Source: Streptomyces sp. NBC_00775 (lineage in GTDB: Bacteria > Actinomycetota > Actinomycetes > Streptomycetales > Streptomycetaceae). From it: a DNA stretch of 64,000 nucleotides. The stretch is from the NCBI RefSeq assembly GCF_036347135.1, contig NZ_CP108938.1, forward strand, positions 5,828,001-5,892,000. The letters run 5' to 3'. Of this stretch, positions 2,055 to 47,941 are shown one piece after another (position 1 is the first letter of the stretch; the number at the start of each line of letters is the position of its first letter). Below the pieces are notes generated by a model. It worked only from the letters and a program-made list of their open reading frames with translations. It was not told the DNA's origin and searched no databases. The position numbers and the translations under genes were made by a program.

Positions 2055-2935
2055 TCGACGGCCCCGGCCGCCGGGTCCGTCCATGCCGCCGGTGCTGTCG
2101 CTGGGGTCAGAAGTGGGATCAACTGCTCTTCCTCGTACGTCAGATGGGCTTCGAGGTCGGCGGTCAGGCGTTCCACCTCGGAGAGTACGTGACCGGGGTC
2201 CGCGTCCTCGGCAGCGACAACCCGGCGGAGCTCTTCGAGGAGGCCCGCGATCCGTTCGTGTTCCTGGCGCAGGCGGTCCAGGGCCGGGGCAAGTTCGGGA
2301 TGGCGGCCGGCGAGGAACGGGAAGATGCCGAGCTCCTCGCCGGTGTGGTGGTTGTGGAGGCCCTGGCAGAGGGTGAGGCAGTTGACGGGGAGCTGGGCGC
2401 CGAGCGCCGGCCCCTGCTCCGCGACCTCCTTGCGCACCAGGGCGAGTTCACGCCGGAAGGCGTCGTGGACGACCTTCAGGGCGTCCGCCATGGAGCCCGC
2501 GTTGACGTTCGGCGGGCCGTCCTTCGGGATCGCGTGCAGGGCGACGACGGGGATGACACGAGCCGTCTTCGCCTGGTACTCCGCCCACCCCGGGTCGGCC
2601 TCCACCGCGCGGGCGAAGACGGCGTCACGTTCGGCGCCTTCGAGTACGACCGCATCCGCCTCGTAGGTGAAGACACCGTCCTCGACGGTCAGCCGCGGGT
2701 TCGCGACGAGATTGTGGAACCAGTCGGGGTGCTGGGGCGCGCCCCCGGCCGACGCGATGACGAGCACGCGCTCGCCGCCGTCGGGGTAGAAGCCGACGGG
2801 GGTCGTGTGCGGGGTTCCCGTCCGTGCGCCGGTGGTTGTCAGCAGGAGCAGCCGGGCTCCTTCGAAATAACCGCCGACGCGTCCGTTGTTGGCGCGGAAT
2901 TCATCGATGACCTGCTCATTGAAGGGGTTGGGCAT
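2051..2935 (-). CDS. Deazaflavin-type nitroreductase with C-terminal hemerythrin domain
   Basis: 294 residues in two parts. Residues about 1-140 match the Ddn-like nitroreductase/F420-dependent family (RVGGYFEGARLLLLTTTGA, GFYPDGGERVLVIASAGG). Residues about 150-290 form a four-helix hemerythrin-type domain with His and Glu ligands (CLTLCQGLHNHHTGEE, HLTYEEEQLIP), which in this family binds a di-iron centre sensing oxygen or redox. The start MPNPFNEQVIDEF is the usual one; an in-frame ATG 49 codons upstream only adds low-complexity sequence. It is the first gene of a two-gene operon with the SDR at 1386-2054. The function is probably F420-dependent reduction linked to redox or oxygen sensing; the substrate is unknown. 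Confidence 0.85.
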   Translation of the reverse strand: MPNPFNEQVIDEFRANNGRVGGYFEGARLLLLTTTGARTGTPHTTPVGFYPDGGERVLVIASAGGAPQHPDWFHNLVANPRLTVEDGVFTYEADAVVLEGAERDAVFARAVEADPGWAEYQAKTARVIPVVALHAIPKDGPPNVNAGSMADALKVVHDAFRRELALVRKEVAEQGPALGAQLPVNCLTLCQGLHNHHTGEELGIFPFLAGRHPELAPALDRLRQEHERIAGLLEELRRVVAAEDADPGHVLSEVERLTADLEAHLTYEEEQLIPLLTPATAPAAWTDPAAGAVE

Positions 2936-3274
2936 TCGCTGCTTTCTTTTGTTTTCGGGCAGGAGGAATTGCCGCGGGGCGAATGCGGCGTGCATGCGGC
3001 GCGCATGTGGATTGATCGCAGCCCGCGGTGCGGAATGTGGTGCGTGAAGGCGCGCTCCGTCCCCAACAGGGGGTGCGCACAAGGAAGGCGTACGAAGACG
3101 TCGTACGAAGAAAGCGCAGGCGGGGCTCTACCCCGCCCCGGCCTCACTCGGAGGCCGGGCAACCAACTCGCTCACGGCACAAGGCCGACCCGGCAGTCAT
3201 GGACGTCACGCTAATGCCGGGTGCGGCCTTAATGCAATGGGCTATTCCCTGCCCAAGCGATTTCGCGCATATTT
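2936..3274. other. Intergenic region between two minus-strand genes, no gene seen
   Basis: About 340 bp that is less GC-rich than its surroundings (around 3230-3290). It must hold the promoter of the reductase-hemerythrin operon. I see no convincing ORF, hairpin or ECF41-type promoter in it. Confidence 0.4.
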
Positions 3275-4162
3275 TCAGGCATCCAGGGCGGCGACTTCCA
3301 GTTCGCCGAGGCGGTCCGGGTCTGCGATGACGTCGATTCCGGTGATCAGGTCGTCGTCCGTGAGCGTGAAGGTCAGGACCAGGCGGAGGCGGCCGAGGGG
3401 GGCCATGGCCAGGCCGACCGTTCCGTCGAGAAGGGCGGGGCCGGTGAAGTGGGCGCGGCCGGTGGCGGCCATCGCGCCCTTGGCGACGGTGATCGCGCCG
3501 CTGACGACGACCGGTTCCGGGGTGGGGATGACGAACGTGTCGGCGTGCAGGACGACGTCTGGGTGGAGGAGGGCGACCAGGGCCTCGAAGTCGCCGCCGC
3601 GGGTCGCGGCGAGGAAGGCGTCGACGACGCGGCGCCGGCGGGTCAGATCGGCCTCGGGCAGCGGGGAGGCTCCCTTGACCCGGCGCCGGGCGCGGCTCGC
3701 GAGCTGCCGTACGGCGGCGGGTGAGCGTTCGAGCATCGGGCCGATGTCGTCGAAGGGCACGGCGAACATGTCGTGCAGGACGAAGGCGAGCCGTTCCGCG
3801 GGAGAGAGCGTGTCGAGGACGACGAGCAGGGCGACGCCGACGGAGTCGGCCAGCACGGCTTCCTCTTCCGGGTCGCCGCCGTCCTCCGGGGCGACGGCCG
3901 GGTCGGTGAGCCGTACGTCGAGAGGTTCCTCGCGCTGCCGTTCGCGCGTGCGCAGCAGGTTCAGGCACACCCGCGCCACGACCGTGGTCAGCCACCCGGC
4001 GATGTTCTCGATGTCGTCGGTGTCGGCACGGCTGGCGCGCAACCAGGCTTCCTGGAGCGCGTCATCGGCCTCGCTCACCGAGCCGAGCATCCGGTAGGCC
4101 ACCGCCCGCAGATGCGTCCGGTGCTCCTCGAAACGCTCCGCCAGCCATGCGCTCTCGCCCAC
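3275..4162 (-). CDS. ECF sigma factor with C-terminal SnoaL-like domain (ECF41/SigJ type), copy 1
   Basis: 295 residues. Sigma-2 is near residues 10-75 (LRAVAYRMLGSVSEADDALQ), sigma-4 near 110-165 (LSPAERLAFVLHDMF with a helix-turn-helix after it), and a SnoaL-like domain fills 180-295. The fused SnoaL domain is the hallmark of ECF41-type sigma factors, where it replaces a separate anti-sigma factor as regulator. The C-terminal tail ADPDRL resembles the NPDKL motif of the family, but the DGGGK motif is not clear. The start is GTG at 4162. The gene is divergent from an NAD(P)-binding oxidoreductase whose upstream DNA carries a matching promoter at 4165-4191. Confidence 0.9.
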   Translation of the reverse strand: MGESAWLAERFEEHRTHLRAVAYRMLGSVSEADDALQEAWLRASRADTDDIENIAGWLTTVVARVCLNLLRTRERQREEPLDVRLTDPAVAPEDGGDPEEEAVLADSVGVALLVVLDTLSPAERLAFVLHDMFAVPFDDIGPMLERSPAAVRQLASRARRRVKGASPLPEADLTRRRRVVDAFLAATRGGDFEALVALLHPDVVLHADTFVIPTPEPVVVSGAITVAKGAMAATGRAHFTGPALLDGTVGLAMAPLGRLRLVLTFTLTDDDLITGIDVIADPDRLGELEVAALDA

Positions 4163-4164
4163 CG

Positions 4165-4191
4165 TGTCACATTCCTTCCGCGCGGGGTGTC
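4165..4191 (+). promoter_or_regulatory. ECF41-type promoter TGTCACA-N16-TGTC upstream of the 4269 oxidoreductase
   Basis: TGTCACA at 4165-4171 is followed by exactly 16 bases and TGTC at 4188-4191. The published ECF41 target consensus is TGTCACA-N16-CGTC, so one base differs. It lies 78 bp before the oxidoreductase ATG and starts two bases beyond the divergent sigma-factor start codon, the typical ECF41 arrangement. Identical spacing occurs at two further sites in the window. Confidence 0.75.
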
Positions 4192-4268
4192 AGAGGAATA
4201 GAACACCGAGAACCCGCTGAGGGGACAGGGGTTTCCAACCTCCCGTCCTCACGAACCTGGGAGCAGCC

Positions 4269-5039
4269 ATGACCTCCACCCCCGCAACCGTCCTGGTCAC
4301 CGGCGGCACCGGCACGCTCGGAAGCCTTGCCGTCCCGCTGCTGCGGGAGGCCGGCCGCGACGTACGGGTGCTGAGCCGGCACGCCCGCGAGGCCACCGAC
4401 GGCGTCGAGTACGTGGCCGTCGACCTGTTGAAGGGCGAGGGCATCGACGCCGCGCTGACCGGCGTCGACACCGTCCTGCACCTCGCGGGCGGCCCCAAGG
4501 GCGACGACATCGCGACCCGCAACCTGGTGCGGGCCGCGCGGACCGCGGGCGTACGGCACCTCGTGTACATCTCGGTCGTCGGCGCGGACCGCGTCCCGCT
4601 GGCCTGGCTCAGGTCGAAGCTGGACGCCGAGCGGACCATCGCGGAATCCGGGGTGCCGTGGACGACACTGCGGGCCGCCCAGTTCCACGAGTTGACGCTG
4701 AAGATGGTGCAGACGATGGCGAAGATGCCGGTCTTCCCGGTCCCCGGCGGGCTGCGCCTCCAGCCGGTCGACGCGCGCGACGTCGCGGCCCGCATCGCCG
4801 AACTCACCCTCGGCAGCCCGGCCGGCCTGGTGCCCGACCTCACCGGACCCCAGGTGTACGGCCTGGACGACCTGGCCCGCGGCTACCTCAAGGCCCGCGG
4901 CAAGCGCCGCCCGATGATGCCGCTCCGCATCCCCGGCAAGGCGGGACGCGCCTACCGCGCGGGCGACAACCTGACGCTGGCCGGAGCGGACACCGGCAAG
5001 CGGAGTTGGGAGGACTTCTTGGCGGAGCGGGTGGGCTGA
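4269..5039 (+). CDS. NmrA-like/atypical SDR NAD(P)-binding oxidoreductase, ECF41 partner
   Basis: 256 residues. The N-terminus LVTGGTGTLGSLAVPLLREA is an extended-type dinucleotide-binding fold, and YISVVGAD follows near residue 100. The family includes NAD(P)H-dependent quinone/flavin reductases and redox sensors; the true substrate is unknown. The ATG at 4269 is preceded by GGGAG at 6-bp spacing. It is the divergent neighbour of ECF41 copy 1 and follows an ECF41-type promoter, so it is probably the direct target of that sigma factor (the 'oxidoreductase' class of the COE genes linked to ECF41). Confidence 0.88.
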   Translation: MTSTPATVLVTGGTGTLGSLAVPLLREAGRDVRVLSRHAREATDGVEYVAVDLLKGEGIDAALTGVDTVLHLAGGPKGDDIATRNLVRAARTAGVRHLVYISVVGADRVPLAWLRSKLDAERTIAESGVPWTTLRAAQFHELTLKMVQTMAKMPVFPVPGGLRLQPVDARDVAARIAELTLGSPAGLVPDLTGPQVYGLDDLARGYLKARGKRRPMMPLRIPGKAGRAYRAGDNLTLAGADTGKRSWEDFLAERVG

Positions 5040-5148
5040 GCGGCGCCGGGTGAGCCGTGTGAGGGGAGCCGGGGAGGTGCGGGTGCTTGCCGTGCGCGCG
5101 GCGGAAATCCCCTCCACCCCGCCGCTCACCCGTCCATATGATCACCGA

Positions 5149-5697
5149 ATGATCGAAGGCAAGCTGGTACGGCTCAGGGCGCTGCGCGCCGACGACGTGG
5201 ACGCCCAGGTGCGCTGGCGCAACGACCCCGAGGTCGTGCACTGGGCCACCGGCGGTGACCCGCTCTTCGGCCCGGTCACCCGGGAGGCGGTGGCGCACTT
5301 CCACGAGGTCCGTCTGCGCGACGACCCGCGCGCGCAGCAGACGTTCACCGTGGAGGACCTGGCCGACGGCCGTGCGATCGGCATGGTCGACTACCGCGAC
5401 CTCGACTCCTTCGCCGGCCGGGCGACGGTCGGTATCACCATCGGCGAACGCGACCGCTGGGGCGGCGGCTACGGCTCCGAGGCCCTCCGCCTGCTGCTGG
5501 ACCACCTCTTCGGCGCCCTGCGACTGCACCGCGTCGAACTCGACACCTGGAGCGGCAACGAGCGTGCCCTGCGCGCCTTCCGCGCGATCGGGTTCGTGGA
5601 GGAGGGACGGCGCCGGGAGAGCGTACGCGTGGGCGGCAAGTGGTACGACGGCGTGGAGTTCGGACTCCTCCGGGAGGAGTGGACGTCCCGGGGCTGA
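5149..5697 (+). CDS. GNAT family N-acetyltransferase
   Basis: 182 residues resembling RimJ/RimL-type acetyltransferases: VRLRALRADDVDAQVRW at the start, an acetyl-CoA loop GGGYGSEALRLLL near residue 105, and HRVELDTWSGNERALRAF near 125. It transfers acetyl groups to an unknown amine. I took the ATG at 5149 because MIEGKLVRLRALR is the normal family N-terminus; upstream in-frame starts add unrelated residues. A separate gene from its neighbours is likely, with 109 bp on the left and 50 bp on the right. Confidence 0.88.
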   Translation: MIEGKLVRLRALRADDVDAQVRWRNDPEVVHWATGGDPLFGPVTREAVAHFHEVRLRDDPRAQQTFTVEDLADGRAIGMVDYRDLDSFAGRATVGITIGERDRWGGGYGSEALRLLLDHLFGALRLHRVELDTWSGNERALRAFRAIGFVEEGRRRESVRVGGKWYDGVEFGLLREEWTSRG

Positions 5698-5711
5698 GGG
5701 GCCGTAGAGAG

Positions 5712-5747
5712 CACGTCTATCCTGCGGTTCACGTCTATCCTGCGGTT
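5712..5747 (+). repeat. Perfect 18-bp tandem duplication containing a -10-like element
   Basis: CACGTCTATCCTGCGGTT occurs twice head to tail (5712-5729 and 5730-5747) and ends exactly at the ATG of the next gene. Each copy contains TATCCT. The second (5736-5741) sits 7 bases before the ATG, the right distance for a leaderless transcript starting at the ATG. Confidence 0.8.
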
Positions 5748-6311
5748 ATGGACGGAAATGCGCCGCGTCCACTTCTCTTCCTCGACGTCGACGGACCACT
5801 CATCCCGTTCGGGGCAGGGCCGGAGCAGTACCCGGACGGATACCCGACGTACCCGGCACTCCCGGCACCCCCGGTGTCCCCGATGCGCCGGACCGGCCTC
5901 GGGCCCCAGCCGGCCGCGGTGAACCCACTGCTGACCAGGATCAATCCGGCCCATGGCCCGCGACTGGCGGCGTTGCCGTGCGATCTGGTGTGGGCCACGA
6001 CCTGGATGGCTGACGCGAACGAGTGCGTCGCGCCGTGGCTCGGCCTGCCGGAACTGCCCTTCGTGGTCTGGCCGGACCCCTCCGACTCCGACGAGGCCGA
6101 GTGGGGTGCGCCGCACTGGAAGACCCGCCCGCTCGTCCACTGGGCGTCCGGCCGCGACTTCCTCTGGGTCGACGACGAGATCACCGACGCCGACCGGACC
6201 TGGGTCGCCGCGCACCACCGTGGGCGAGCACTGCTGCATCGCGTGGATCACCGCCACGGCCTCACGGACGCGGACTTCGCCGCCCTCGAAGAGTGGCTGA
6301 CTCATTTCTGA
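5748..6311 (+). CDS. HAD-domain protein (Swiss-army-knife RNA repair type)
   Basis: 187 residues starting with PRPLLFLDVDGPLIPFG, the DxD nucleophile motif of the HAD superfamily. WATTWMADANE (motif II) is near residue 85 and WVDDEI (motif III/IV acidic pair) near 140. This layout matches the HAD-type domain called 'Swiss Army Knife RNA repair', whose members are mostly single-domain proteins of unknown role in actinobacteria. The start is supported by the conserved N-terminus and by the -10-like element directly upstream, which suggests leaderless translation. No partner gene is evident. Confidence 0.8.
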   Translation: MDGNAPRPLLFLDVDGPLIPFGAGPEQYPDGYPTYPALPAPPVSPMRRTGLGPQPAAVNPLLTRINPAHGPRLAALPCDLVWATTWMADANECVAPWLGLPELPFVVWPDPSDSDEAEWGAPHWKTRPLVHWASGRDFLWVDDEITDADRTWVAAHHRGRALLHRVDHRHGLTDADFAALEEWLTHF

Positions 6312-6372
6312 GGGCGGTTCCAGGCGTCCGTATCCTCGTGATCGTCGGCGCCGGTGTCCGTGAGGGCCTCCG

Positions 6373-8775
<2,403 letters not shown>

Positions 8776-9004
8776 CGTGTCTCCCTCTCGTGGGCCTCTT
8801 GGGCGGGGCCGCCTTCGCGGTCTCCGTCGGCGTCGCCTGGATCGACCTGACTGGCTTCGAGTAGCCGGCCGCGAGTAGTACGTCCGTTTTTGGCCGCGAC
8901 CGCCGGACGGCTCGGCGGAGCGCGTTGAAGCCTGTGACGGTCAGGCTAGTTGCGGCTTCGTGCCCCGCGCTTCTCGAATCCTGATCGGTACGGGAATCCT
9001 GCCC

Positions 9005-9051
9005 GGTCCGGTGGTCCGGTGGTCCGGTGGTCTCGTGGTCCTGTGGTCCGG
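9005..9051. repeat. 8-bp tandem repeat (GGTCCGGT type, six units)
   Basis: Three perfect GGTCCGGT units (9005-9028) are followed by three degenerate ones (GGTCTCGT, GGTCCTGT, GGTCCGG) in the spacer just beyond the 3' end of the sigma-factor gene. The rest of the 283-bp gap 8776-9058 shows no gene. Confidence 0.75.
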
Positions 9052-9058
9052 AAGGCGG

Positions 9059-9994
9059 TCAGCTCTTCCGGTCGACCGGTGGCCGGCTCGCCTCTCTCGC
9101 CTCGCGGGTGACCGCCCAGGCGTCCGCCACCGGACCCACGTGCCCGAGCTTGTCGGGGTTGATGACCGAGCGGATCGCCTGGATCCGTCCGTCGAGGATG
9201 TCGAGCCCCAAGGTGTTGACGACCTTGCCGTCCCGGTCGCGGAAGACCGCGCCCGGCTGGCCGTTCACCTCCTGCGGCTCCACCACGCCGCCGATACGGA
9301 CGAACGGCGTGGCGATCGCGGCGAGCAGCCGGGCCACGTTCTCGGCGCCGAAGATGCCGCTGCCCCACTGCGGGGCCTTGCCGCCGCTGTCCCCGACCAT
9401 CGACACGTCGGCGGCGAGCAGCTCCCGCAGCCCGTCGACGTCCCCTTCTCTGAACGCGTCGAAGAATCGCCCGGCGAGTTCCTCGCGCTCCCTGCGGTCG
9501 GCCTCGAACCGGGGCCGGCCCGCGTCCATGTGGCGCCGCGCCCGCACCGCCAGCTGGCGGCACGCAGCCTCCGAGCGCCCGACCGCCGACGCGACCTCGG
9601 GGAAGCCGAAGCAGAACACCTCCCGCAGGACGAAGACGGCGCGCTCCAGCGGGCTGAGCCGCTCCAGCAGCAACAGGGCCGCCATCGACACGGAGTCGGC
9701 CAGCTCCGCCGACCGCGCCGGATCCTCGTAGGGGTCGGTCAGCAGCGGCTCGGGGAACCACGATCCGACGTACTCCTCCCGCCGGACACGGGCCGAGCGC
9801 AGTACGTCGATCGAGACCCGGGTGACCACGGCCGAGAGGAAGGCCTTGGCCGACGCGGGCTGTGCCCGGGAGGCCGCGAAGCGCAGCCAGCTCTCCTGGA
9901 CCGCGTCCTCGGCCTCGCTCACGCTGCCCAGGATCCGGTAGGCGATCGAGAACAGCAGCGGTCGTAGCTCCTCGAACTCCTCGGTCCGGGTCAC
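9059..9994 (-). CDS. ECF41-type sigma factor with C-terminal SnoaL-like domain, copy 2
   Basis: 311 residues. Sigma-2 is near 15-80 (LFSIAYRILGSVSEAEDAVQ), sigma-4 near 125-185 (LSPLERAVFVLREVF), and a SnoaL-like domain follows. It carries the two ECF41 hallmark motifs in near-canonical form: DSGGK near residue 218 (consensus DGGGK) and NPDKL near residue 285. The GTG at 9994 overlaps the upstream epimerase stop as GTGA, so the two genes are co-translated. Expected role: a one-component regulator in which the SnoaL domain controls sigma activity, directing transcription of its own operon and perhaps other TGTCACA promoters nearby. Confidence 0.92.
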   Translation of the reverse strand: MTRTEEFEELRPLLFSIAYRILGSVSEAEDAVQESWLRFAASRAQPASAKAFLSAVVTRVSIDVLRSARVRREEYVGSWFPEPLLTDPYEDPARSAELADSVSMAALLLLERLSPLERAVFVLREVFCFGFPEVASAVGRSEAACRQLAVRARRHMDAGRPRFEADRREREELAGRFFDAFREGDVDGLRELLAADVSMVGDSGGKAPQWGSGIFGAENVARLLAAIATPFVRIGGVVEPQEVNGQPGAVFRDRDGKVVNTLGLDILDGRIQAIRSVINPDKLGHVGPVADAWAVTREAREASRPPVDRKS

Positions 9995-10923
9995 GCCAGC
10001 TCCTCCTTGAAGCCCTGGCGCCACGAGGGGTAGCGCGGTTCCCAGCCGAGCTCCCGCCTGGCCTTGGCGTTGGAGAAGCCGCGCCCCTCGGTCATCATCA
10101 CCACCGCCTGTTCCCCGGCCAGCAGCCGGGCCAGCCACTTGGGCACCCGCATCGGCCGCTTCGCCCCCGCGCACGCCGCGAGGTACGGCAGCCACTCGCT
10201 CGCCGGGGCCGGGTCGTCGTCCACGATGTTGAACACGCCCCTCGCCTTCTGCTCCACGGCCAGGACGGTAGCGCTCGCCGCGTCGTCGAGATGCACCCAC
10301 GAGCTGTAGCCGGTGGAGCGCCCGACGAGCGGGAACTGCCGCTTGCGGATGAGCTCGACCTGGTCGTCGATGGCGTACGGCCCGTAGAACGCGCCGTATC
10401 GCATCACCGCGCCGCCGGCCTTGAGGACCACCTCCTCGACGTGGCGTATCGCCTCCATCCCCGCCTGCGCGGCCGTTCCCGTCATCAGGTCCAGCGGGTC
10501 CTCCTCGGTCTTGACCCAGCCGCCCTGGCGGATGCCGTTCCAGCTGGCGTAGCCCTGCGCGACGACATGGGAGACGCCGGTCGCCTCGGCGGCTGCCAGC
10601 AGGTGGTCCGTCCCCTCGGTGCGCAGCCGGTTGGTGGTGGCGAACCAGCGGTCCGGGTGCTTCAGATCGGGCTTGCCGGCGTGAGTGAGGCTGATGGCGG
10701 TCATCTGGTGCACGATCACGTCGGGCCTGGCCGCGGCCACCGCCTCACCGACCGACACCGCGTCCAGCCCGTCCATCACGACCCCCACCGCGCCCAGCTG
10801 CTCCAGCAGGCCCAGCTTGGCCGCGCTCGTCGTCGAAGCCGTCACCTGGTGCTCCCGGGCCACGAGCTGCGGCACCAGCCGCCGCCCCAGGACCCCGGCC
10901 CCGCCTGCCACGAACACCCGCAT
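9991..10923 (-). CDS. NAD-dependent epimerase/dehydratase family protein, ECF41 partner
   Basis: 310 residues of the extended SDR fold: VFVAGGAGVLGRRLVPQL at the N-terminus and the region around YGAFYGPYAIDDQ near residue 175. Members act on nucleotide sugars or related carbonyls; the substrate is unknown. ATGs at 10923 and 10929 are both possible with similar upstream purine-rich sites; I prefer 10923 because MRVFVAGG begins the Rossmann strand. It forms an operon with ECF41 copy 2 (4-bp overlap) and lies behind a perfect ECF41 promoter on this strand at 10994-11020. This is the 'epimerase' class of COE target genes. Confidence 0.88.
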   Translation of the reverse strand: MRVFVAGGAGVLGRRLVPQLVAREHQVTASTTSAAKLGLLEQLGAVGVVMDGLDAVSVGEAVAAARPDVIVHQMTAISLTHAGKPDLKHPDRWFATTNRLRTEGTDHLLAAAEATGVSHVVAQGYASWNGIRQGGWVKTEEDPLDLMTGTAAQAGMEAIRHVEEVVLKAGGAVMRYGAFYGPYAIDDQVELIRKRQFPLVGRSTGYSSWVHLDDAASATVLAVEQKARGVFNIVDDDPAPASEWLPYLAACAGAKRPMRVPKWLARLLAGEQAVVMMTEGRGFSNAKARRELGWEPRYPSWRQGFKEELA

Positions 10924-10942
10924 GACCATCACCTTTACCTTC

Positions 10943-10975
10943 CTGATTCCGGCCTGATTCCGGCCTGACTCCGGC
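10943..10975. repeat. 11-bp tandem repeat, three units
   Basis: CTGATTCCGGC occurs three times in a row (the third copy has one substitution) in the 5' leader between the ECF41 promoter and the epimerase start. Confidence 0.8.
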
Positions 10976-10993
10976 ATTGGCTCTCATCCCGGA

Positions 10994-11020
10994 GACGAGA
11001 CAGCCCGGGCGTCTGTGACA
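10994..11020 (-). promoter_or_regulatory. ECF41 promoter TGTCACA-N16-CGTC of the epimerase-sigma operon
   Basis: Read on the minus strand, TGTCACA (11020 to 11014), 16 bases, then CGTC (10997 to 10994): a perfect match to the published ECF41 consensus. It is about 70 bp before the epimerase start codon. Confidence 0.8.
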
Positions 11021-11101
11021 TGGGGAGCGAGGACAGGCGGGTGGCGATGGTGGCTGTGACACGGGAAGCGAGGACAGGCGCAGGCGGGTGGCGATCGTGG
11101 A
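11014..11101. repeat. Imperfect tandem duplication (41 and 47 bp) in a divergent ECF41 promoter region
   Basis: Copy A is 11014-11054 and copy B is 11055-11101. They are identical except for about four substitutions and a 6-bp insertion (CAGGCG) in copy B. Each begins with TGTGACA, the -35 element of the leftward ECF41 promoter. Only copy A has CGTC at the correct 16-bp distance. The second copy is followed directly by the rightward TGTCACA at 11102. Confidence 0.85.
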
Positions 11102-11128
11102 TGTCACATACGCGGGCCCGGCGGTGTC
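11102..11128 (+). promoter_or_regulatory. ECF41-type promoter TGTCACA-N16-TGTC of the decarboxylase-sigma operon
   Basis: TGTCACA at 11102-11108, exactly 16 bases, then TGTC at 11125-11128. It has the same spacing and the same -10 variant as the site at 4165-4191. Transcription would start near 11135, which favours the downstream start codon at 11186 over the ATG at 11132. Confidence 0.75.
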
Positions 11129-11149
11129 TTCATGCCGAACAGCCCAACA

Positions 11150-11175
11150 GGCAGATGTCCAAGGCAGATGTCCAA
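11150..11175. repeat. Perfect 13-bp tandem duplication in a 5' leader
   Basis: GGCAGATGTCCAA occurs twice head to tail just before the AAGGAGG ribosome binding site (11174-11180) of the next gene. Confidence 0.8.
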
Positions 11176-11185
11176 GGAGGACACC

Positions 11186-11764
11186 ATGGCGCTACGCGTC
11201 CCGAAGGCTGAGCTTCCCGCCGAGCTCAGCGAAAACATGATCAAGCAGCTCGGTGCCGTTCCGGAGCCCGTCGAGGTGGTGTGGCACAGCCCCAAGGTCG
11301 CCACGTCCAACCTGGAGTTCTCGGCCAAGCTGGCCGAGTGGGACGCGGCCGACGCGAGCCTCAAGTCGTTCGCGCACATGGCCGTCGCGGCACAGGTCGG
11401 CTGCGGCTGGTGCCTCGACGTCGGCTACTTCCAGGCGCAGAACCAGAACCTGGACCTGGCCAAGGCGAGCCAGGTGCCGCGCTGGCGGGAGTCGGAGGTG
11501 TTCACGCCGCTGGAGCGGGACGTGCTGGAGTACGCCGAGGCGATGACGAACACGCCGCCGACCGTCACCGACGAGCTGCATGCGAGCCTGCTCGACCGGC
11601 TCGGCCCGGCCGCGATGGTCGAGCTCACCGCGTACATCGCCTTCGTCAACATGGCGACCAGGAACAACAATGCGAACGGGATCACCTCGCAGGGCTTCTC
11701 CGATGCCTGCGAGATTCCGCTCGTCGCGCGGCCGGAGAACTCCGACGTAGCGTCGACGGTATGA
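11186..11764 (+). CDS. Carboxymuconolactone decarboxylase family protein, ECF41 partner
   Basis: 192 residues of the AhpD-like fold. The redox-active pair is in AAQVGCGWCLDVGYFQAQ near residue 75, a CxxC with a following acidic/His environment as in alkylhydroperoxidase-type members. The likely role is peroxidase or thiol-redox activity rather than true decarboxylation. The start is fixed by AAGGAGG five bases upstream. The stop overlaps the following ECF41 gene (ATGA), and the gene follows an ECF41-type promoter, so it is the presumed target ('C' of the COE classes) of that sigma factor. Confidence 0.9.
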   Translation: MALRVPKAELPAELSENMIKQLGAVPEPVEVVWHSPKVATSNLEFSAKLAEWDAADASLKSFAHMAVAAQVGCGWCLDVGYFQAQNQNLDLAKASQVPRWRESEVFTPLERDVLEYAEAMTNTPPTVTDELHASLLDRLGPAAMVELTAYIAFVNMATRNNNANGITSQGFSDACEIPLVARPENSDVASTV

Positions 11765-12627
11765 CCGAGGACCCGTTCGTCGCCCATCGCAGCCTGCTGT
11801 TCACGGTCGCCTACGAGATGCTCGGGTCGGCGGCCGACGCGGAGGACGTGCTCCAGGAGTCCTGGCTGCGGTGGGCCGACGTCGACCAGACGCAGGTGCG
11901 TGACCCGCGGGCGTACCTCGTCCGGATCGTCACGCGGCAAGCGCTCAACCGCCTGCGGACGTTGTCGCGCAGCCGCGAGGAATACGTCGGCGAGTGGCTG
12001 CCGGAACCCCTGCTGACCAGTCCTGATGTCGCCGAGGACATCGAACTCGCGGAGAGCGTGTCGATCGCGATGCTGACCGTCCTGGAAACGCTCGGGCCGA
12101 CGGAGCGGGCGGTGTTCGTGCTCCGCGAGGTCTTCGACATGCCGTACGGCGAGATCGCCGAGGCCATCGGGAAGTCCTCGGCCACGGTGCGGCAGATCGC
12201 CCGGCGCTCACGCGAGCATGTGGCGGCTCGGCGGCCACGGGCGCAGGTGAGCCGGTCGGAGCAACAGGCCGTGGTGGAGCGGTTCCTGGCCTCGTTGCGC
12301 ACCGGGCAGTTGCAGGAGCTGATGGAGGTCATGGCGCCGGATGTGGTCCTGATCGCCGATGGCGGCGGGTTCGCGGCCGCCGCGCTGGCTCCGATCCACG
12401 GGGCCGAACTGGTGGCGACGGTGCTCGCGCGCGCGGACCGGGTGGCGGCCGCGTTCGAGACGACGACGGTGTGGCTCAACGGCGCGCCCGCCGGCCGGTT
12501 CGAGGTCGACGGCGAGCCGACCGCGGTGAGCCTCGTGGTGGAGAACGGGCAGGTCACCCGGATCTACCTGATGAGAAACCCGCGGAAGCTGACGCGGCTG
12601 GACGAACCGGCCGAACTCGCCAGGTAG
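11761..12627 (+). CDS. ECF41-type sigma factor with C-terminal SnoaL-like domain, copy 3
   Basis: 288 residues. Sigma-2 is near 8-75 (LLFTVAYEMLGSAADAEDVL), sigma-4 near 115-170 (LGPTERAVFVLREVFDMPYG), and a SnoaL-like domain occupies about 180-288. ECF41 motifs are present but altered: DGGGF near residue 201 (consensus DGGGK) and NPRKL near residue 276 (consensus NPDKL). The ATG overlaps the upstream decarboxylase stop by 4 bp, indicating one transcript. The replaced Lys in DGGGK may change how the C-terminal domain controls activity. Confidence 0.92.
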   Translation: MTEDPFVAHRSLLFTVAYEMLGSAADAEDVLQESWLRWADVDQTQVRDPRAYLVRIVTRQALNRLRTLSRSREEYVGEWLPEPLLTSPDVAEDIELAESVSIAMLTVLETLGPTERAVFVLREVFDMPYGEIAEAIGKSSATVRQIARRSREHVAARRPRAQVSRSEQQAVVERFLASLRTGQLQELMEVMAPDVVLIADGGGFAAAALAPIHGAELVATVLARADRVAAAFETTTVWLNGAPAGRFEVDGEPTAVSLVVENGQVTRIYLMRNPRKLTRLDEPAELAR

Positions 12628-12645
12628 ACCCGCTGCGGCTCCGGC

Positions 12646-12679
12646 AAGGAGAGGAAGGCGTTAAGGAGAGGAAGGCGTT
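12646..12679. repeat. Perfect 17-bp tandem duplication between converging genes
   Basis: AAGGAGAGGAAGGCGTT occurs twice head to tail (12646-12662, 12663-12679). The second copy reaches into the stop codon of the convergent acetyltransferase gene. Confidence 0.85.
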
Positions 12680-13559
12680 ACTGAGCGACCTCCGGTTCGG
12701 TGTACGCGAAGTCGTACACGGCCCATTCGGTGATCGGGAGGTACCCGATGCGCTGGTAGAGGGCGTTGCTGGTGGGGTTGGCCGGGTTCGCGTGCAGCAC
12801 GACGTCCGTGGCGCCCGCGGCCAGCGCGGCCCGGCTCACCTCGACCGTCGCGGCGCCCGCGTAGCCGTGACCGCGCAGGTGGGCCGGGGTGTAGACGGGG
12901 TCCACCTGGATCACGCCGGCGACCATCGGGTTCACGCCTGCCATGGAGACGGGCGTGCCGTCCGGGCTCTCCCAGAAGGTGAAGCGTTTGTCGGCGAAGC
13001 GTGTGCCGGCCCAGGAGTCGGCGTCGATGGTGACGACTTCCCCGACGTCCGTCGCGAACTCACGGCACCACCGCATGAGTTGCTCCTGGTCCTGCTCGCC
13101 CACGGGCCGGCCCCGGCCCGCTGGGACCGGCTGCGGTGGGGTGAGCGTGCCGAGGCGGTACAGGCGGATCCGTGTGCGGAGTGCCGGCGTCGCGCCTGTG
13201 TGCCGCTGCCAGGCCTCGGCGAAGGCGGTGGCGGTGTCGTGGGCCGCGCTGACGTAGGGAAGGGAGTGACCGAGGGCGGCCAGGTGGGCGGCGAGGAGGT
13301 CGGCCTGCTCGGGGGTGAGGGGGGTGAGGCCCAGGCCGAGGGACGGGAGGCGGTGGAGGGTGGCGCGGACCTCGCCCGCTCGCTCCAGCCGGCCGAAGAG
13401 GGGGGCTTGGGTGCCGTATGCGGCCGCCCCGCGTGTGCGCAGTCTCTCGATCGCTGTCAGCGGCGTGACGTGCAGGGCGGGCCGTGAGCGCAGGAACTCT
13501 CCGGCCCGGGCGAGAAAGTCGTCGACGTCTTCGGTGAGGTGCCAGTCATCCGGGCGCAT
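12678..13559 (-). CDS. GNAT family N-acetyltransferase (two-domain)
   Basis: 293 residues. The C-terminal GNAT domain is clear: VDPVYTPAHLRGHGYAGAAT near residue 220 is the acetyl-CoA loop, and HANPANPTSNALYQRIGY near 260 is the typical end. The N-terminal half is a degenerate GNAT-like domain, as in other two-domain actinobacterial members. The substrate is unknown. The ATG at 13559 has only a weak ribosome binding site (GGAAA). It is convergent with ECF41 copy 3. Confidence 0.85.
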   Translation of the reverse strand: MRPDDWHLTEDVDDFLARAGEFLRSRPALHVTPLTAIERLRTRGAAAYGTQAPLFGRLERAGEVRATLHRLPSLGLGLTPLTPEQADLLAAHLAALGHSLPYVSAAHDTATAFAEAWQRHTGATPALRTRIRLYRLGTLTPPQPVPAGRGRPVGEQDQEQLMRWCREFATDVGEVVTIDADSWAGTRFADKRFTFWESPDGTPVSMAGVNPMVAGVIQVDPVYTPAHLRGHGYAGAATVEVSRAALAAGATDVVLHANPANPTSNALYQRIGYLPITEWAVYDFAYTEPEVAQ

Positions 13560-13676
13560 GCTTCATGATTTCCGATGCGCTCGACGCGGGGATCGCGAAT
13601 GCCCGAAGAGCGCCGCATCCGACGTGCCGACCCTCGGCGAGCCCTGCCGGGCCTGGAGTTGACGCTGCGTCACCCG

Positions 13677-14063
13677 TTACGGGGTGAGCCGCACGCGGAT
13701 GCCCAGCGTCCCGTCCGCTCCCCGGCGCAGTCGGCTGTCGAGAATCATGAGGCGGCCGAGGATGCCGTACTTGCGGGCGATGAGCGAGCGGTAGCGGGCG
13801 CCGGTTGCCTTGTCGGCGATCTCGGCGGTGGCCGGGATCTGGTCCCCCGTCGGGTTGCCGCGCAGGTCGCAGGGGCCGACGAGGATGTCGCCGCGTGCCC
13901 GGATCCGCTTGACCTTCCAGGAGTCTGCGGGGGTCCGCACGCCCAGCGTGTCACCGTCGCGCACCACCCACACCGGGGTGGTGACCGGGGTGCCGTTCTT
14001 GCGGTAGCTGGTGACGAGCAGGTACTTGCCGGCGCCGAGCCGTTCCAGCAGCGTGTCGTCCAT
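13677..14063 (-). CDS. PPOX-class F420-dependent oxidoreductase
   Basis: 128 residues of the split-barrel FMN/F420-binding fold: LLVTSYRKNGTPVTTPVWVV near residue 12 and SWKVKRIRARGDILVGPCD near 45, both typical of TIGR03666-like F420 reductases. I chose MDDTLLERL at 14063, with AAGGAG 12 bases upstream; a GTG at 14108 with no ribosome binding site is the alternative. With the DJ-1-like and SDR genes it forms a string of minus-strand redox genes, but the gaps of 131 and 224 bp argue against one tight operon. Confidence 0.85.
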   Translation of the reverse strand: MDDTLLERLGAGKYLLVTSYRKNGTPVTTPVWVVRDGDTLGVRTPADSWKVKRIRARGDILVGPCDLRGNPTGDQIPATAEIADKATGARYRSLIARKYGILGRLMILDSRLRRGADGTLGIRVRLTP

Positions 14064-14194
14064 GGTGCGTTTCTGCTCCTTGTTATTGCGTTCGGGGTCG
14101 TTGGCCACTTGGGCGGCGTACTGCGATGTCAGTTCGGGGGCAGCCTTCGTGCTCTCGGCCTGAGGGGAGTACGGGTGCAGCTCGATTTGGCTTG

Positions 14195-14902
14195 TTACTC
14201 GGTCTCGGCCAAGGCGGCGAGAATCAAGTCGCTGACGGCCTTGGTGGACACCGGGTTCTGGCCTGTGATCAGGCGGCCGTCGCGCACGGCGTGCGGCGTC
14301 ATCGGGACGGTGGAGCGCACGTATGTGGCTCCCTTCGCGCGCAATTCGTCCTCCAGCAGGAACGGCACCCTGCTCTTCACGCCGGCCAGTCTTTCCTCGA
14401 CCGTCGCGAAGCCGGTGACGGTGCGGTTCCGTACGAGCGGATTCCCGTCGGCATCACGGAGGTTGATGAGGGCGCAGGCGCCATGGCAGACCGAGGAGAC
14501 GATGCCGCCCCCGGCGTGGATGGCCTCGGCTGTTCGCCGCAGGTCGGCGTTGTCGGGAAAGTCCCACATGGTGCCGTGCCCGCCCGTGAAGAAGATCGTG
14601 GAGTAGTCGTCCGGATCTGCGTCGGCCACGGAAGCAGTGGACTTCAGGGAGGTCATGAAGGCCGGGTCGGCTCGATAATCGCGAACCGTCCGGTCGGCGA
14701 ACAAGCGGCCGAGGCTTCGAGGATCGAGTGGCACCTCGCCGCCGGCCGGGCTGACCACATCCACGGTGTGGCCGTCTGCCACCGCCTTGTCGTGGAAATG
14801 GACGAGTTCACCGAGCCAGAGGCCGGTCAGGTGCTTGCTCGCCCCGTAGGTGGCCTGATTGGTCACCACCGCCAGAATTTTCTTCCGTCTCACTTTTCCC
14901 AC
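14195..14902 (-). CDS. DJ-1/PfpI (Hsp31-like) family protein
   Basis: 235 residues. The nucleophile elbow SSVCHGACAL near residue 140 carries the conserved Cys-His of this superfamily, with FFTGGHGTMWDF near residue 105 and a glutamate-containing N-terminal region (WLGELVHFHDKA). Relatives act as glyoxalase III/methylglyoxal hydratases, protein deglycases or chaperones. The annotated start is GTG at 14902; another GTG three codons on is also possible. It is probably stress related. Confidence 0.85.
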   Translation of the reverse strand: MGKVRRKKILAVVTNQATYGASKHLTGLWLGELVHFHDKAVADGHTVDVVSPAGGEVPLDPRSLGRLFADRTVRDYRADPAFMTSLKSTASVADADPDDYSTIFFTGGHGTMWDFPDNADLRRTAEAIHAGGGIVSSVCHGACALINLRDADGNPLVRNRTVTGFATVEERLAGVKSRVPFLLEDELRAKGATYVRSTVPMTPHAVRDGRLITGQNPVSTKAVSDLILAALAETE

Positions 14903-15126
14903 AGTTCCTTTCGGTCAACTACGCATCGCCGCCTGAGGCGTCGACCGTGACGAACTCCTGGTCGGCGCCTCAGGCGGCGGTCGGCACTGAGCCCAGCCGA
15001 TGTAGACGCCTGCCATGAAGCGCAGGCAGACGCGGACGATGGTGTCGGCCGGCGTGACAGGTGAGAGGGGTGTGGGCCGCCATCACGCCTCCTTGCCCGC
15101 CTCGGGGTTGGCCACGGGGATGGTGT

Positions 15127-15894
15127 TCAGCCCTGCTCGGTGGGGCGTACGAGCATCTCGTTGACGGCGACGTGCCGGGGGCGGGTGGCGATGTAGCCGA
15201 TGGCGTCGGCGATGTCCTGGCTCTGCAGCCGCTCGATGTCGCCCAGGCCGGCCACGATCAGCTGCTGGACGACTTCCGAGTTGTGGGTGCGCAGTTCGGT
15301 GTCGACGCTGCCCGGCTCGACGACGGACACGCGGACGTGCTGGCGCCCCAGTTCCTGGCGCAGTGCCTCGCTGAAGCCTCCGACGCCGAACTTGGTGGCG
15401 CTGTACACGGCGGACATGGCGAAGGCGGTGCGGCCGTTCACCGAGCTGATGTTGATGATGTCGGCGACCTGGCGCGGCGCGTCGGCGGCGGCCTTGACCA
15501 GGTGGGGGACGGCCGCGTGGGTGGTGTACATCAGGCCCATGAGGTTGATGTCGATCATGCGCTGCCAGTCGTTCAGGTCCGCGCCGGGGGTGGGCCCGAG
15601 GAGCATGAGGCCGGCGTTGTTGACCAGGATGTCCAGGCGGCCAAGGCCCTCGACGGTCCGCTCGACCGCTTCCGCGGCGGCCTGGGCGGTGGTGATGTCG
15701 GCGGGCACGACCAGAGCCTTCCCGCCCTCCTCGGAGATTTCCGTGGCGAGGCCGGTGAGCCGGTCCTCGCGCCGTCCGACCAGGGCCACGGAGGCGCCCT
15801 CGCGGGCGAGCTCCAGCGCGGTGGCGTGGCCGATGCCGCTGGAGGCTCCGGTGACCAGGGCGACGGTTCCTTCAAGACGACGAGTCTGCGTCAT
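15127..15894 (-). CDS. SDR family oxidoreductase divergent from a TetR regulator
   Basis: 255 residues, classical SDR: TGASSGIG at residue 15, NNAG near 90, and the catalytic Ser of NISSVNG near 150 with YSATK near 165. The substrate is unknown. A TetR regulator is transcribed divergently 160 bp away, so it is likely the repressor of this gene. The ATG at 15894 begins MTQTRRLEGTVALVTG, the usual family start. Confidence 0.88.
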   Translation of the reverse strand: MTQTRRLEGTVALVTGASSGIGHATALELAREGASVALVGRREDRLTGLATEISEEGGKALVVPADITTAQAAAEAVERTVEGLGRLDILVNNAGLMLLGPTPGADLNDWQRMIDINLMGLMYTTHAAVPHLVKAAADAPRQVADIINISSVNGRTAFAMSAVYSATKFGVGGFSEALRQELGRQHVRVSVVEPGSVDTELRTHNSEVVQQLIVAGLGDIERLQSQDIADAIGYIATRPRHVAVNEMLVRPTEQG

Positions 15895-15939
15895 GGTTCA
15901 AGCCTTTCGATGAACGGCCGCGTTGTAGTGGGCCGTACG

Positions 15940-15970
15940 GGATACGGGTCGTAGGGGATACGGGTCGTAC
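15940..15970. promoter_or_regulatory. Direct repeat, candidate TetR operator
   Basis: GGGATACGGGTCGTA occurs at 15940-15954 and 15956-15970, with CCGTACGG-type palindromic ends on both sides (GTACGG at the left, GTACGGG at the right). It lies between the divergent SDR and TetR genes. Assignment as the operator is inference from position and symmetry. Confidence 0.45.
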
Positions 15971-16054
15971 GGGACAGGGGGAAGACAGCCCTGCCGGCGA
16001 GGGCCGTACAGGGGTGGAGGCCGCTCAAGGCAGGGCCGAGGGCACAATGGGGAG

Positions 16055-16663
16055 GTGAGCAGCACTGGGCAGAAGACCACCGACGCCAAGCATCAGCAGA
16101 GCACGGTCGAGGGAGACCTGCCGCCTCGCGAACGCCTGGTCAGGGCCGCGTCGCGGCTGTTCTACTACGAGGGCGTACGCGCGATCGGTGTGGAGCGGCT
16201 GATCGCCGAGGCCGGGGTGACGAAGGCGACCTTCTACCGGCACTTCGCCGCCAAGGACGACCTTGTCGTGGCCTATCTGCTGACCAAGGACGCCTACTAC
16301 AAGGACGTGGCCGAACCACTGGCCGCCGCGCACCCGCCCGCGGAAGCGATCGACCGGATCTTCGAGGCGATCGCCGAGCACGCCCGTGAGCGTGGCTTTC
16401 GGGGATCGCCGTTCATGAACGCGGCCGCCGAGTACCCGGACGCCACCCATCCGGTCCGCGGCCTGGTGACATCTCACCGGGACTGGATCCGCACCCTCTT
16501 CCAGGAACTGCTCACCCGGCTCGGCCACACCGACCCCAAGTCGGCCGCCGGCGCCCTGCTGATGCTGTACGACGGAGCGATGGCGGCCGGCTACCTGGAC
16601 GACTCGACGGCCGCCCACAAGACCCTGCTGGACGCGGTCCGCCTGATCCGATCGGGAGGCTGA
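16055..16663 (+). CDS. TetR/AcrR family transcriptional regulator
   Basis: 202 residues. The N-terminal helix-turn-helix (RLFYYEGVRAIGVERLIAEA followed by GVTKATFYRHFAAKDDLV, residues about 35-75) is typical TetR; the C-terminal ligand-binding domain ends near 200. The GTG at 16055 is preceded closely by GGGGAG. Placed divergently from the SDR gene, it probably represses that gene and itself; the ligand is unknown. Confidence 0.9.
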   Translation: MSSTGQKTTDAKHQQSTVEGDLPPRERLVRAASRLFYYEGVRAIGVERLIAEAGVTKATFYRHFAAKDDLVVAYLLTKDAYYKDVAEPLAAAHPPAEAIDRIFEAIAEHARERGFRGSPFMNAAAEYPDATHPVRGLVTSHRDWIRTLFQELLTRLGHTDPKSAAGALLMLYDGAMAAGYLDDSTAAHKTLLDAVRLIRSGG

Positions 16664-17193
16664 CCCCATCGAGGCCGCGCGAAACACCGGCCCCCTGTTG
16701 GACCCCGGGCAAGCCAGGGCGCGGATTGGCTTCATGGAGCTTTCATCTCTGTTCGACGTGCACCGGGACCCACTGGCAGTCGCTTGCCTGGTTGGCAGTC
16801 CCGTCCGGAAGGCCGAGACGCCCACCCTCAAGAGGTAGGAAGACCGGTCGTTCTACCTCTCGACGATAACCCCCCTTGGCGTCCTCGCGCCAGCGGTCGA
16901 GCGGCTTGTGGGATCCCTCACGGGCTGCTGCTGCCTCGGTGGGCCTTCCCGGCTTGCGTGGCCGAACTCGCCTGCTCCCTGCGGGCGCCCGTCGAGAGGT
17001 ATCGCCAACCGCCCGAAAATCCGTGGAACCGCACCCTCGTGTGCCGTTACCGTTCTCGCGCCCACAGTCGCCCTGTCAAGGACGTGCCGTTGTACACCAA
17101 GTGAGACCCCCCGAGCGCTGATCCGTCGCGCGTCGCACCTGTGCGCCGCGCTCCTTTTCGCTGCGGTCTTCTCACTGGAACCGGTGTATTTCT
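16664..17193. other. 530-bp gap without a convincing gene, containing a 30-bp inverted repeat
   Basis: No ORF here has a family signature. The one structured element is AGAGGTAG (16831-16838), GACCGGTC (16842-16849, itself palindromic) and CTACCTCT (16853-16860): an almost complete 30-bp inverted repeat. It is too far from the TetR stop codon to be an ordinary terminator and could be a regulator site. Confidence 0.5.
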
Positions 17194-17646
17194 GTGTCCA
17201 AGAACTGGGTGGTCGTGCCCACCTGCCTGCCGATCGTTCTCCGCCGTTGCCACAGGTGCGCCTCCGGGCGCTTCCGGCCGAACGGCAAGTTCCGCGTCAA
17301 CGCGAACCACAAGCTCCTCGACGCCTGGCTCCTCGCGCTGTGCACCGGGTGCGGGGACACCGCCAAGGTCACTGTCCTGGAGCGGGTGAACGTGCGTTCC
17401 GTACGGCCCGAGGTCCTGAGGCTGCTGCACGGCAACGCCCCCGGCCTGGCAGCCGCGCTGCTCCAGGACCCGGTCATGCGGCGCCGCGACGTGGGCGGCT
17501 CGGGTCGAACTGGGCGGCCGGCCTGGCAGTCGCCGTACGGTCCGCCGTCGCACCGGGCGCGCCGCGGCCGGTGGGCGCCTGTGCCGGGGTTGGCCTGGCC
17601 TCGGTCCGCTCTGCGGCGGGGATACCGGTGTGACCGGTGCGTCTGA
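17194..17646 (+). CDS. DUF1062 domain protein, C-terminus apparently frameshifted
   Basis: The first 100 residues fit DUF1062: CHRCASGRFRPNGKFRVNAN, then a second CxxC (CTGCGDTAKVTVLERV), suggesting a zinc ribbon, and GLAAALLQDPVMRRR. From residue about 103 the sequence becomes Arg/Pro/Gly-rich and no longer resembles the family (usually about 170-200 residues), while traces of the expected continuation appear in other frames (for example a DW-like NWAAG around 17500 in the +1 frame). Read as a GTG start at 17194. Either a sequencing/assembly frameshift or a decaying gene. Confidence 0.6.
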   Translation: MSKNWVVVPTCLPIVLRRCHRCASGRFRPNGKFRVNANHKLLDAWLLALCTGCGDTAKVTVLERVNVRSVRPEVLRLLHGNAPGLAAALLQDPVMRRRDVGGSGRTGRPAWQSPYGPPSHRARRGRWAPVPGLAWPRSALRRGYRCDRCV

Positions 17647-17697
17647 GCGCCGAAGGTTCGTGCTCGGCCTCACTCCTCCGCCCGAGTGGCGTGGCGC

Positions 17698-17753: not shown

Positions 17754-18257
17754 ATGGCATCGCTCAACGTCGGCAATCTTGGTGAGTATCTGCGGGAACA
17801 GCGGCGCAGCGCGCAGCTGTCACTGCGGCAGCTCGCCGACGCCGCCGGCGTGTCCAATCCGTATCTGAGCCAGATCGAGCGCGGGCTGCGCAAGCCGAGC
17901 GCGGAGGTGTTGCAGCAGGTCGCCAAGGCGCTGCGGATCTCCGCCGAGACGCTGTACGTGCGGGCCGGCATCCTCGACGCCGAGCGGGACCGGGACGAGG
18001 TGGAGACGCGCGCCGTCATCCTCGCCGATCCCACGCTGAACGAGCGGCAGAAGCAGGTGCTGCTCCAGATCTACGAGTCCTTCCGCAAGGAGAACGGGTT
18101 CGAGATCACGCAGGAAGCGCCCCAGGATGCGACCTCGGACGCGAACCAGGGCGTGGCGCAGGACATATCGGATGCCCAGCACCCGCAGGACACCGCCGCC
18201 CGCGGCCCCCGCACGGCCGACGGCAGCGATGCCGATCCGCAGCAGACCGCCAGTTGA
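17754..18257 (+). CDS. XRE-family helix-turn-helix regulator upstream of hbhA-like gene
   Basis: 167 residues. HTH_3 domain at about 8-65 (LGEYLREQRRSAQLSLRQLA, GVSNPYLSQIERGLRKPS), a helical middle, and an acidic/polar disordered tail. ATG at 17754 with AGGAGG upstream. The order regulator, HbhA-like protein, DUF2516 membrane protein is the same as Rv0474-Rv0475-Rv0476 in M. tuberculosis, so the gene is part of an old actinobacterial block. An inverted repeat directly upstream suggests autoregulation. Confidence 0.9.
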   Translation: MASLNVGNLGEYLREQRRSAQLSLRQLADAAGVSNPYLSQIERGLRKPSAEVLQQVAKALRISAETLYVRAGILDAERDRDEVETRAVILADPTLNERQKQVLLQIYESFRKENGFEITQEAPQDATSDANQGVAQDISDAQHPQDTAARGPRTADGSDADPQQTAS

Positions 18258-47866: not shown

Positions 47867-47941
47867 GCCTCCTTAGCTCAGTCCGGCCAGAGCAACGCAC
47901 TTGTAATGCGTAGGTCGTCGGTTCGAATCCGACAGGAGGCT
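47867..47941 (+). tRNA. tRNA-Thr (anticodon TGT)
   Basis: Acceptor stem GCCTCCT/AGGAGGC is perfect, the anticodon loop is CTTGTAA within GCA...TGC, the T-arm is GTCGGTTCGAATCCGAC, and the discriminator is T, followed by an encoded CCA (47942-47944). Confidence 0.95.

Follow-up and report, generated by a model that had tools for sequence, protein, structure and literature searches.

Three ECF41-type sigma factor modules gathered at a variable spot of a Streptomyces chromosome, with a candidate residue for -10 discrimination

Introduction

When three extracytoplasmic function (ECF) sigma factor genes of one type lie side by side, each next to an enzyme gene with the same kind of promoter, do they form a single regulatory circuit, or are they separate modules that have come to share one place? 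This question is raised by a 64-kb stretch of DNA (G000:C1:5828001-5892000, subsequently designated the window, whose positions are used below and marked "w" where needed) from a single-contig Streptomyces genome of 11.1 Mb. Here, sigma1 (3275..4162, minus strand), sigma2 (9059..9994, minus strand) and sigma3 (11761..12627, plus strand) are encoded within 8.6 kb. The initial annotation had suggested an integrated redox-response locus, or crosstalk in which each sigma factor would read the promoters of the others. We consider it probable that they are three independent ECF41-type one-component modules, which are gathered at one variable spot and distinguished by their -10 reading, and not one evolved circuit.

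In Streptomyces, each genome has a minimum of four ECF41 sigma factors, and some reach 13; one promoter consensus has been published for them (PMC3426412). ECF groups 41 and 42 rank among the most orthogonal ones (PMC3817407).

Results

Three sigma factors with matching promoters

The NCBIfam models SigX4 and SigJ cover all three sigma open reading frames (ORFs) almost end to end. Sigma2 (WFPEP, DSGGK, NPDKL) and sigma3 (WLPEP, DGGGF, NPRKL) exceed both curated cut-offs, possess the linker and motif characteristic of ECF41 (WFPEP/NPDKL and WLPEP/NPRKL, respectively) as well as a long SnoaL-like tail, and are canonical members of this group. Sigma1 represents a divergent SigJ-like subtype, which passes the general ECF cut-off only (SigX4: 209.7 of 323.25 bits; SigJ: 242.4 of 271). 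In the alignment it lacks the WLPEP linker, a stretch that we take to be known as DGGGK and that is visible in the other sigma factors, and NPDKL, which is replaced by DPDRL. Among the ten full-length SigX4-type genes of the genome, sigma1 and two further copies form a subgroup with 56-59% identity, their identity to the other seven being 30-36%. In the 2021 ECF classification, ECF56, ECF205, ECF294 and ECF295 would be candidate groups for sigma1. Evidence for the SnoaL-like tail comes from the full-length SigX4/SigJ matches and the closest solved structure by sequence of all three proteins, Mycobacterium tuberculosis SigJ (5xe7); the Pfam model SnoaL_2 is a weak point, as it remains under its gathering score throughout (E = 0.0031 for sigma1, 1.6e-4 for sigma2 and 0.0018 for sigma3). 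Of the three SnoaL-fused ECF41 factors annotated initially, the ORFs and the SigX4/SigJ family assignment are thus retained, while sigma1 is devoid of the ECF41 motifs and the SnoaL_2 match is sub-threshold. No anti-sigma family was detected among the neighbours of the sigma genes by a Pfam scan, which covered the small ORFs in part.

Each sigma gene adjoins a COE gene with an ECF41-type promoter. The TGTCACA-N16-YGTC promoters that had been annotated for all three partners were confirmed by motif scan and orthologue footprints: TGTCACA-N16-TGTC precedes the NmrA-class gene next to sigma1 (4165..4191, plus strand), TGTCACA-N16-CGTC the epimerase-sigma2 operon (10994..11020, minus strand) and TGTCACA-N16-TGTC the operon of the carboxymuconolactone decarboxylase (CMD) gene and sigma3 (11102..11128, plus strand). 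The window contains exactly three matches to TGTCACA-N15-17-YGTC, all of them at partner promoters, with 0.17 expected from shuffled sequence. Genome-wide, 23 exact sites contrast with nine for the motif read backwards; because this control already yields nine, a lone exact match elsewhere is weak evidence. A regulon derived from exact matches was set aside, as a crude filter assigned a downstream gene to only 8 of the 23 sites and missed two known ones, and statements on targets are confined to COE and sigma genes.

The -10 element follows the sigma lineage

Orthologous loci retain these promoters. Out of 80 CMD-sigma3 loci fetched, 75 had a usable CMD gene, and 72 of them carry a TGTCA-type site (shuffled: 0.70), with exact TGTCACA in 56/75 (shuffled: 0.15). 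The -10 element reads GGTGTC at 71 of these 72 sites and GGCGTC at one. For the epimerase, 39 loci provided 11 matching rows, nine of which have a site, mostly ending in TCTCGTC (shuffled: 0.01). Counted by distinct places and including the window, the ratio is 8/10, and the two rows devoid of a site are matches of 35% and 61%. A CGTC site is also present at 26 of 28 sigma2 orthologues that are not accompanied by an epimerase (shuffled: 0.24). Where checked, the intervening gene in these cases encodes a CMD (by Pfam in L059 and L062, by eye in L069) or a DoxX-like protein (L200, the 82% paralogue in the genome studied here). The sigma2 class accordingly keeps the CGTC -10 with an epimerase, a CMD (L059, L062) or a DoxX-like partner (L200). 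The NmrA-class gene was found in 19 rows from 36 loci, and 13 of these have a site ending in TGTC or GGTC (shuffled: 0.04); six rows are second fetches, and by distinct places, the window included, a site is present at 8/13. Phylogenetic footprints hence support, for all three, the assignment as ECF41-type modules with matching promoters.

Sorted by lineage, the -10 ends in CGTC at sigma2-type genes and in TGTC or GGTC at sigma3-type and most sigma1-type genes. Since a CMD gene carries CGTC beside a sigma2-type factor and TGTC beside sigma3, the -10 element goes with the sigma factor rather than with the target.

One sigma residue tracks the first -10 base

An alignment of 88 sigma3, 35 sigma2 and 34 sigma1 sequences revealed an Asp/Asn difference at one column of the part that reads the -10 element. 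This column corresponds to codon 63 of sigma2 (Asp; 9806..9808, minus strand), a candidate reader of the C in CGTC, to codon 63 of sigma3 (Asn; 11947..11949, plus strand), a candidate reader of the T in TGTC, and to codon 68 of sigma1 (Asn; 3959..3961, minus strand), as indicated by alignment and covariation. For the latter, 207 sigma genes were examined, including some second fetches. A site satisfying the rules was present at 153 of them and L009 was added by hand, resulting in 154 sigma-promoter pairs. Asp was paired with C in 48/48 cases and Asn with T or G in 103/104 (94 with T, nine with G, one with C), the remaining two pairs being Thr with C and Ala with C. In the final ranking, for which the items were chosen independently of column 63, this column came first among 274-284 columns by both measures, regardless of whether clusters were weighted at 60, 70, 80 or 90% identity.

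Residue and base also change together inside lineages. The sigma3-type factor L161 from Chloroflexi has Asp and is linked to GGCGTC, and L009 (Asp, CGTC) differs in both positions from its 67% relative L251 (Asn, GGTC). Among 24 plasmid loci, all 12 with an upstream site fit the rule (five Asn with T, seven Asp with C). Alphaproteobacteria, a betaproteobacterium and a cyanobacterium are represented among these 12, the cyanobacterial site being at a distance of 1.4 kb. As an independent check, the ECF41 factor RpoE9 of Sinorhizobium meliloti (L358, strain USDA1106) has Asp at column 63 and CTCGTC upstream, the same string as at the promoter whose start was mapped in a different strain (PMC6180224).

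By alignment counting from SigH W81, column 63 corresponds to SigH N92. According to PMC6411747, this residue hydrogen-bonds the -11 base pair, and SigJ has Arg at the position of SigH N88, which fits the register used here. C would offer an amino group to Asp, and T or G a carbonyl to Asn, which would chemically suit an Asp/Asn code. Taken together, we lean towards a one-residue code that keeps co-resident ECF41 paralogues apart, in which the first base of XGTC would be read as C by Asp63 and as T or G by Asn. The accessible ECF41 literature contains, in the portions we could consult, no statement of such a residue rule.

Targets away from any sigma gene

Five genomes (G024, G049, G063, G067, G104) carry orphan epimerase genes at the chromosomal spot described below, with no such sigma gene in the fetched stretch, and all five keep a TGTCACA promoter ending in CGTC. 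In the genome studied here, two CMD genes identified by Pfam at 715107 and 726616 (L032, L033) have ECF41-type promoters and no adjoining sigma gene; the nearest of the ten sigma genes (L007, at 702177) is 12 and 24 kb away, respectively. Any transcription of these targets from such promoters would have to depend on a sigma factor encoded elsewhere, and by their sequence they imply that ECF41-type sigma factors can act in trans. In two of the five loci (G063 and G104; L276 and L317), the orphan epimerase is followed by a gene for an HxlR-type regulator, as identified by Pfam in L276 and by eye in L317.

An unusual gathering at a variable spot

With uniform placement, three of the ten SigX4-type genes would fall within 8.6 kb with P = 2.6e-4. 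In 14 complete genomes comprising 129 such genes, seven pairs within 10 kb were counted (expected: 1.08). Pairs at this distance also occur in other genomes, so clustering as such is not unique to this strain. The particular combination was searched for in 392 genomes of the same genus. At E <= 1e-110, sigma3 is present in 58, sigma2 in 132 and both in 32 of them. Both genes are on the same contig in 19 of the 32, among which the present genome alone has them within 20 kb; in the other 13 they lie on different contigs, at a distance that is not readable. The next closest pair is separated by 36 kb (G194), and a partial sigma2 match outside the list (E = 2.4e-95) lies 8.4 kb from sigma3 in G119. 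Sigma1-type matches are common, occurring in at least 269/392 genomes at E <= 1e-80. A conserved three-module locus was consequently rejected, with 1/19 same-contig genomes within 20 kb and close relatives devoid of modules 2 and 3. The co-occurrence across Streptomyces that had been suggested as a check is not what we found: the results argue against joint conservation of the modules, the lack of which the initial annotation had named as a refutation, 13/32 genomes being undecidable owing to separate contigs. By sequence, the locus is an unusual and non-conserved gathering of known modules.

The place itself is variable. The close relatives G040 and G212, whose sigma1 is 92% identical, are collinear with w1-8861 and again from w17682 onward, and lack the 8.8 kb in between. 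This block (8862..17681) comprises modules 2 and 3 as well as GNAT, DJ-1/PfpI, SDR and TetR genes. The same spot holds other subsets elsewhere: sigma1 with an inverted sigma2-epimerase module in G208, sigma1 and sigma2 in G284, and sigma1 with CMD-sigma3 in G276. It is bordered by a helix-turn-helix (HTH) gene (17754..18257, plus strand), which is found in 149/150 same-genus genomes and served as core anchor for a survey of the upstream region in G001-G120 (120 genomes, 1.99 Mb, some stretches being shortened by contig ends). No such sigma gene was found in 111 of these, one in eight and two in one. The resulting ten genes compare with 1.73 expected from the density in the 14 complete genomes (P = 1.4e-5; 8.1e-5 without G040). 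We read the spot as a recurrent ECF41 neighbourhood, which appears to have gained and lost modules repeatedly. In a further Streptomyces contig (L152), the epimerase-sigma2/CMD-sigma3 pair matches and the rest of w8700-18000 does not. The three sigma2 copies at the spot formed one clade in 0/200 bootstrap trees. An insertion borne by a tRNA gene was considered and rejected: the sole tRNA gene of the window is at 47867, and the repeat listing contains no pair that joins the two ends of the block.

Discussion

In our preferred reading, each sigma factor would be a cytoplasmic protein that its SnoaL-like tail restrains, by analogy with studied ECF41 proteins, and would turn on the adjoining enzyme gene from its TGTCACA-N16-XGTC promoter. 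In modules 2 and 3, the operon arrangement would allow the sigma factor to raise its own level, and the modules probably reached the spot by separate arrivals. All three are predicted to use a common -35 element, and sigma2 (Asp63) is predicted to read CGTC, whereas sigma3 (Asn63) and sigma1 (Asn68) are predicted to read TGTC or GGTC. Because Asp63/CGTC sets sigma2 apart from the two Asn factors with TGTC or GGTC, it is predicted to be insulated from them. Orphan targets at unlinked places may in addition be controlled in trans by the sigma factor whose promoter class they share.

Several observations weigh against parts of this interpretation. The site is absent from three of the 75 CMD loci (L111, L131, L162), from 5/13 distinct places with an NmrA-class gene and from 12/24 plasmid loci. 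Genes devoid of a site were left out of the covariation, and only 16/37 sigma1-type genes have one; moreover, each sigma factor was assumed to belong to the site nearest to it, and L190 combines Asn with C. The SigH residue contacts -11 and column 63 tracks -12, which amounts to an offset of one base. Without the present genome, the pairs within 10 kb fall to four, in four of 13 complete genomes (expected: 0.99, P = 0.019), and the sigma2 tree is compatible with a single origin at the spot.

The network envisaged at the outset, in which the sigma factors read each other's promoters and the cluster serves one integrated redox response, appears quite improbable to us. The identical TGTCACA at all three promoters would permit it, as would the presumed -35-binding helix, which keeps RQ.A.R.R in all three proteins, and the epimerase and CMD promoters have their -35 elements facing each other, 81 bp apart. 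Residue and -10 base nevertheless split sigma2 from the other two. In addition, sigma2 and sigma3 are close together in 0/31 further genomes that have the two genes (which lie on different contigs in 13 of all 32), and the relatives G040 and G212 keep sigma1 at the spot without the block that carries sigma2 and sigma3. Free crosstalk among all three is unlikely on these grounds, as the -10 of sigma2 follows its lineage and residue 63 tracks the base. What survives of the idea concerns sigma1 and sigma3, which have Asn and a GGTGTC -10 in common and may share promoters.

A related question is whether the cluster is old. An ancestor could have had several ECF41 modules at the spot, most lineages having lost some of them, which would explain the different subsets in G208, G284, G276 and others and agree with a sigma2 tree compatible with one origin. 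We regard this as unlikely, given that 111/120 surveyed sites, some of them in short stretches, are empty of such sigma genes, that module order and orientation vary between genomes, that the sigma2 of the window does not group with the copies of G208 or G284, and that L152 shares the pair without its surroundings. As to the code, residue 63 and the -10 base might differ through shared descent without any contact: most pairs stem from three large lineages, and clustering at 70% leaves only 15-17 groups. Descent is common to all columns, however, and column 63 outranks every other one; the joint switches inside lineages, the validity of the rule in other phyla and the DNA contact of the aligned SigH residue likewise make descent alone a rather doubtful explanation. 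We therefore return to independent modules with distinct -10 reading.

If the code holds, ECF41 modules sharing one -35 element could accumulate at one spot without cross-firing. A rule of two letters and one residue would make the avoidance of cross-reading by ECF41 sigma factors directly testable, help to match orphan targets to sigma factors and provide a handle for orthogonal switches.

The modules resemble Ecf41Bli and Ecf41Rsp (Wecke 2012, PMC3426412) in the long C-terminal extension and the adjacent COE gene, and the promoter of that system, TGTCACA-N16-CGTC, is of the same type. No anti-sigma gene adjoins the sigma gene in that system, and the neighbours scanned with Pfam here show no such family. 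The published Ecf41Bli promoter ends in TTGTT, for which the rule predicts Asn rather than Asp at column 63. The present modules differ in that three stand together, sigma1 has no hallmark motifs, orphan targets lie far from a sigma gene and two -10 classes face one published consensus. RpoE9 of S. meliloti (PMC6180224) is likewise an ECF41 factor encoded downstream of a CMD gene (SMb20029), with a mapped CTCGTC promoter and Asp at column 63, but forms a single proteobacterial module with one detected target. M. tuberculosis SigJ, the best solved relative, also has Asp at this column in the printed alignment. SigG1 of Streptomyces tsukubaensis (ECF56, PMC7730460) is a SnoaL-tailed ECF factor without NPDKL, as is sigma1; SigG1 is under control of the separate anti-sigma factor RsfG, whereas the neighbours of sigma1 are the NmrA-class enzyme and an F420-type reductase.

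Partner genes, layout and further copies

The partner of sigma1 (4269..5039, plus strand) matches PF13460 (NAD_binding_10), PF05368 (NmrA) and PF01370 (Epimerase) and is transcribed divergently from sigma1, which has no exact promoter site of its own. The epimerase gene (9991..10923, minus strand) and the CMD gene (11186..11764, plus strand; CGWC motif), both assigned by Pfam, each overlap the start of the downstream sigma gene by 4 nt and thereby form the operons of modules 2 and 3. The CMD start was moved from 11132 to 11186, because the former is only 4 nt beyond the -10 element, which is too close, and the latter is preceded by a ribosome-binding site; the product has 192 amino acids. All three COE classes had been annotated initially, including an oxidoreductase at 4269-5039. 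As PMC3426412 places NmrA and Epimerase domains in class E and restricts oxidoreductases to FMN/FAD-type enzymes, this gene belongs to class E and the set is C + E + E.

Between the facing promoters, the segment 11008..11108 contains imperfect repeats with spacings of 41 and 47 bp. They include an extra minus-strand TGTCACA (11055-11061) without YGTC at N15-17. With a copied minus-strand -35 and no -10 element at the usual spacing, these repeats are a possible decoy site. L152 has the same divergent pair with facing promoters, and the repeats were not seen there by eye.

Modules 1 and 2 are separated by an ABC-type ATPase gene (6373..8775, minus strand; Pfam scan), which we take to be UvrA-like. 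Beside module 1, an ORF at 2051-3082 unites two domains, an F420H2-dependent quinone reductase and a hemerythrin. A fourth gene of the same kind, belonging to the sigma1 subtype, is located just right of the window (genome C1:5896499-5897320; L201), with a TGTCACA-CGTC site at genome position 5896346. In G040, another such sigma gene lies ~62 kb from its sigma1. In L061, an intact sigma2-like gene and a degenerate second copy (2689-3441) stand in tandem, and the degenerate copy has a TGTCACC-CTCGTC site to itself.

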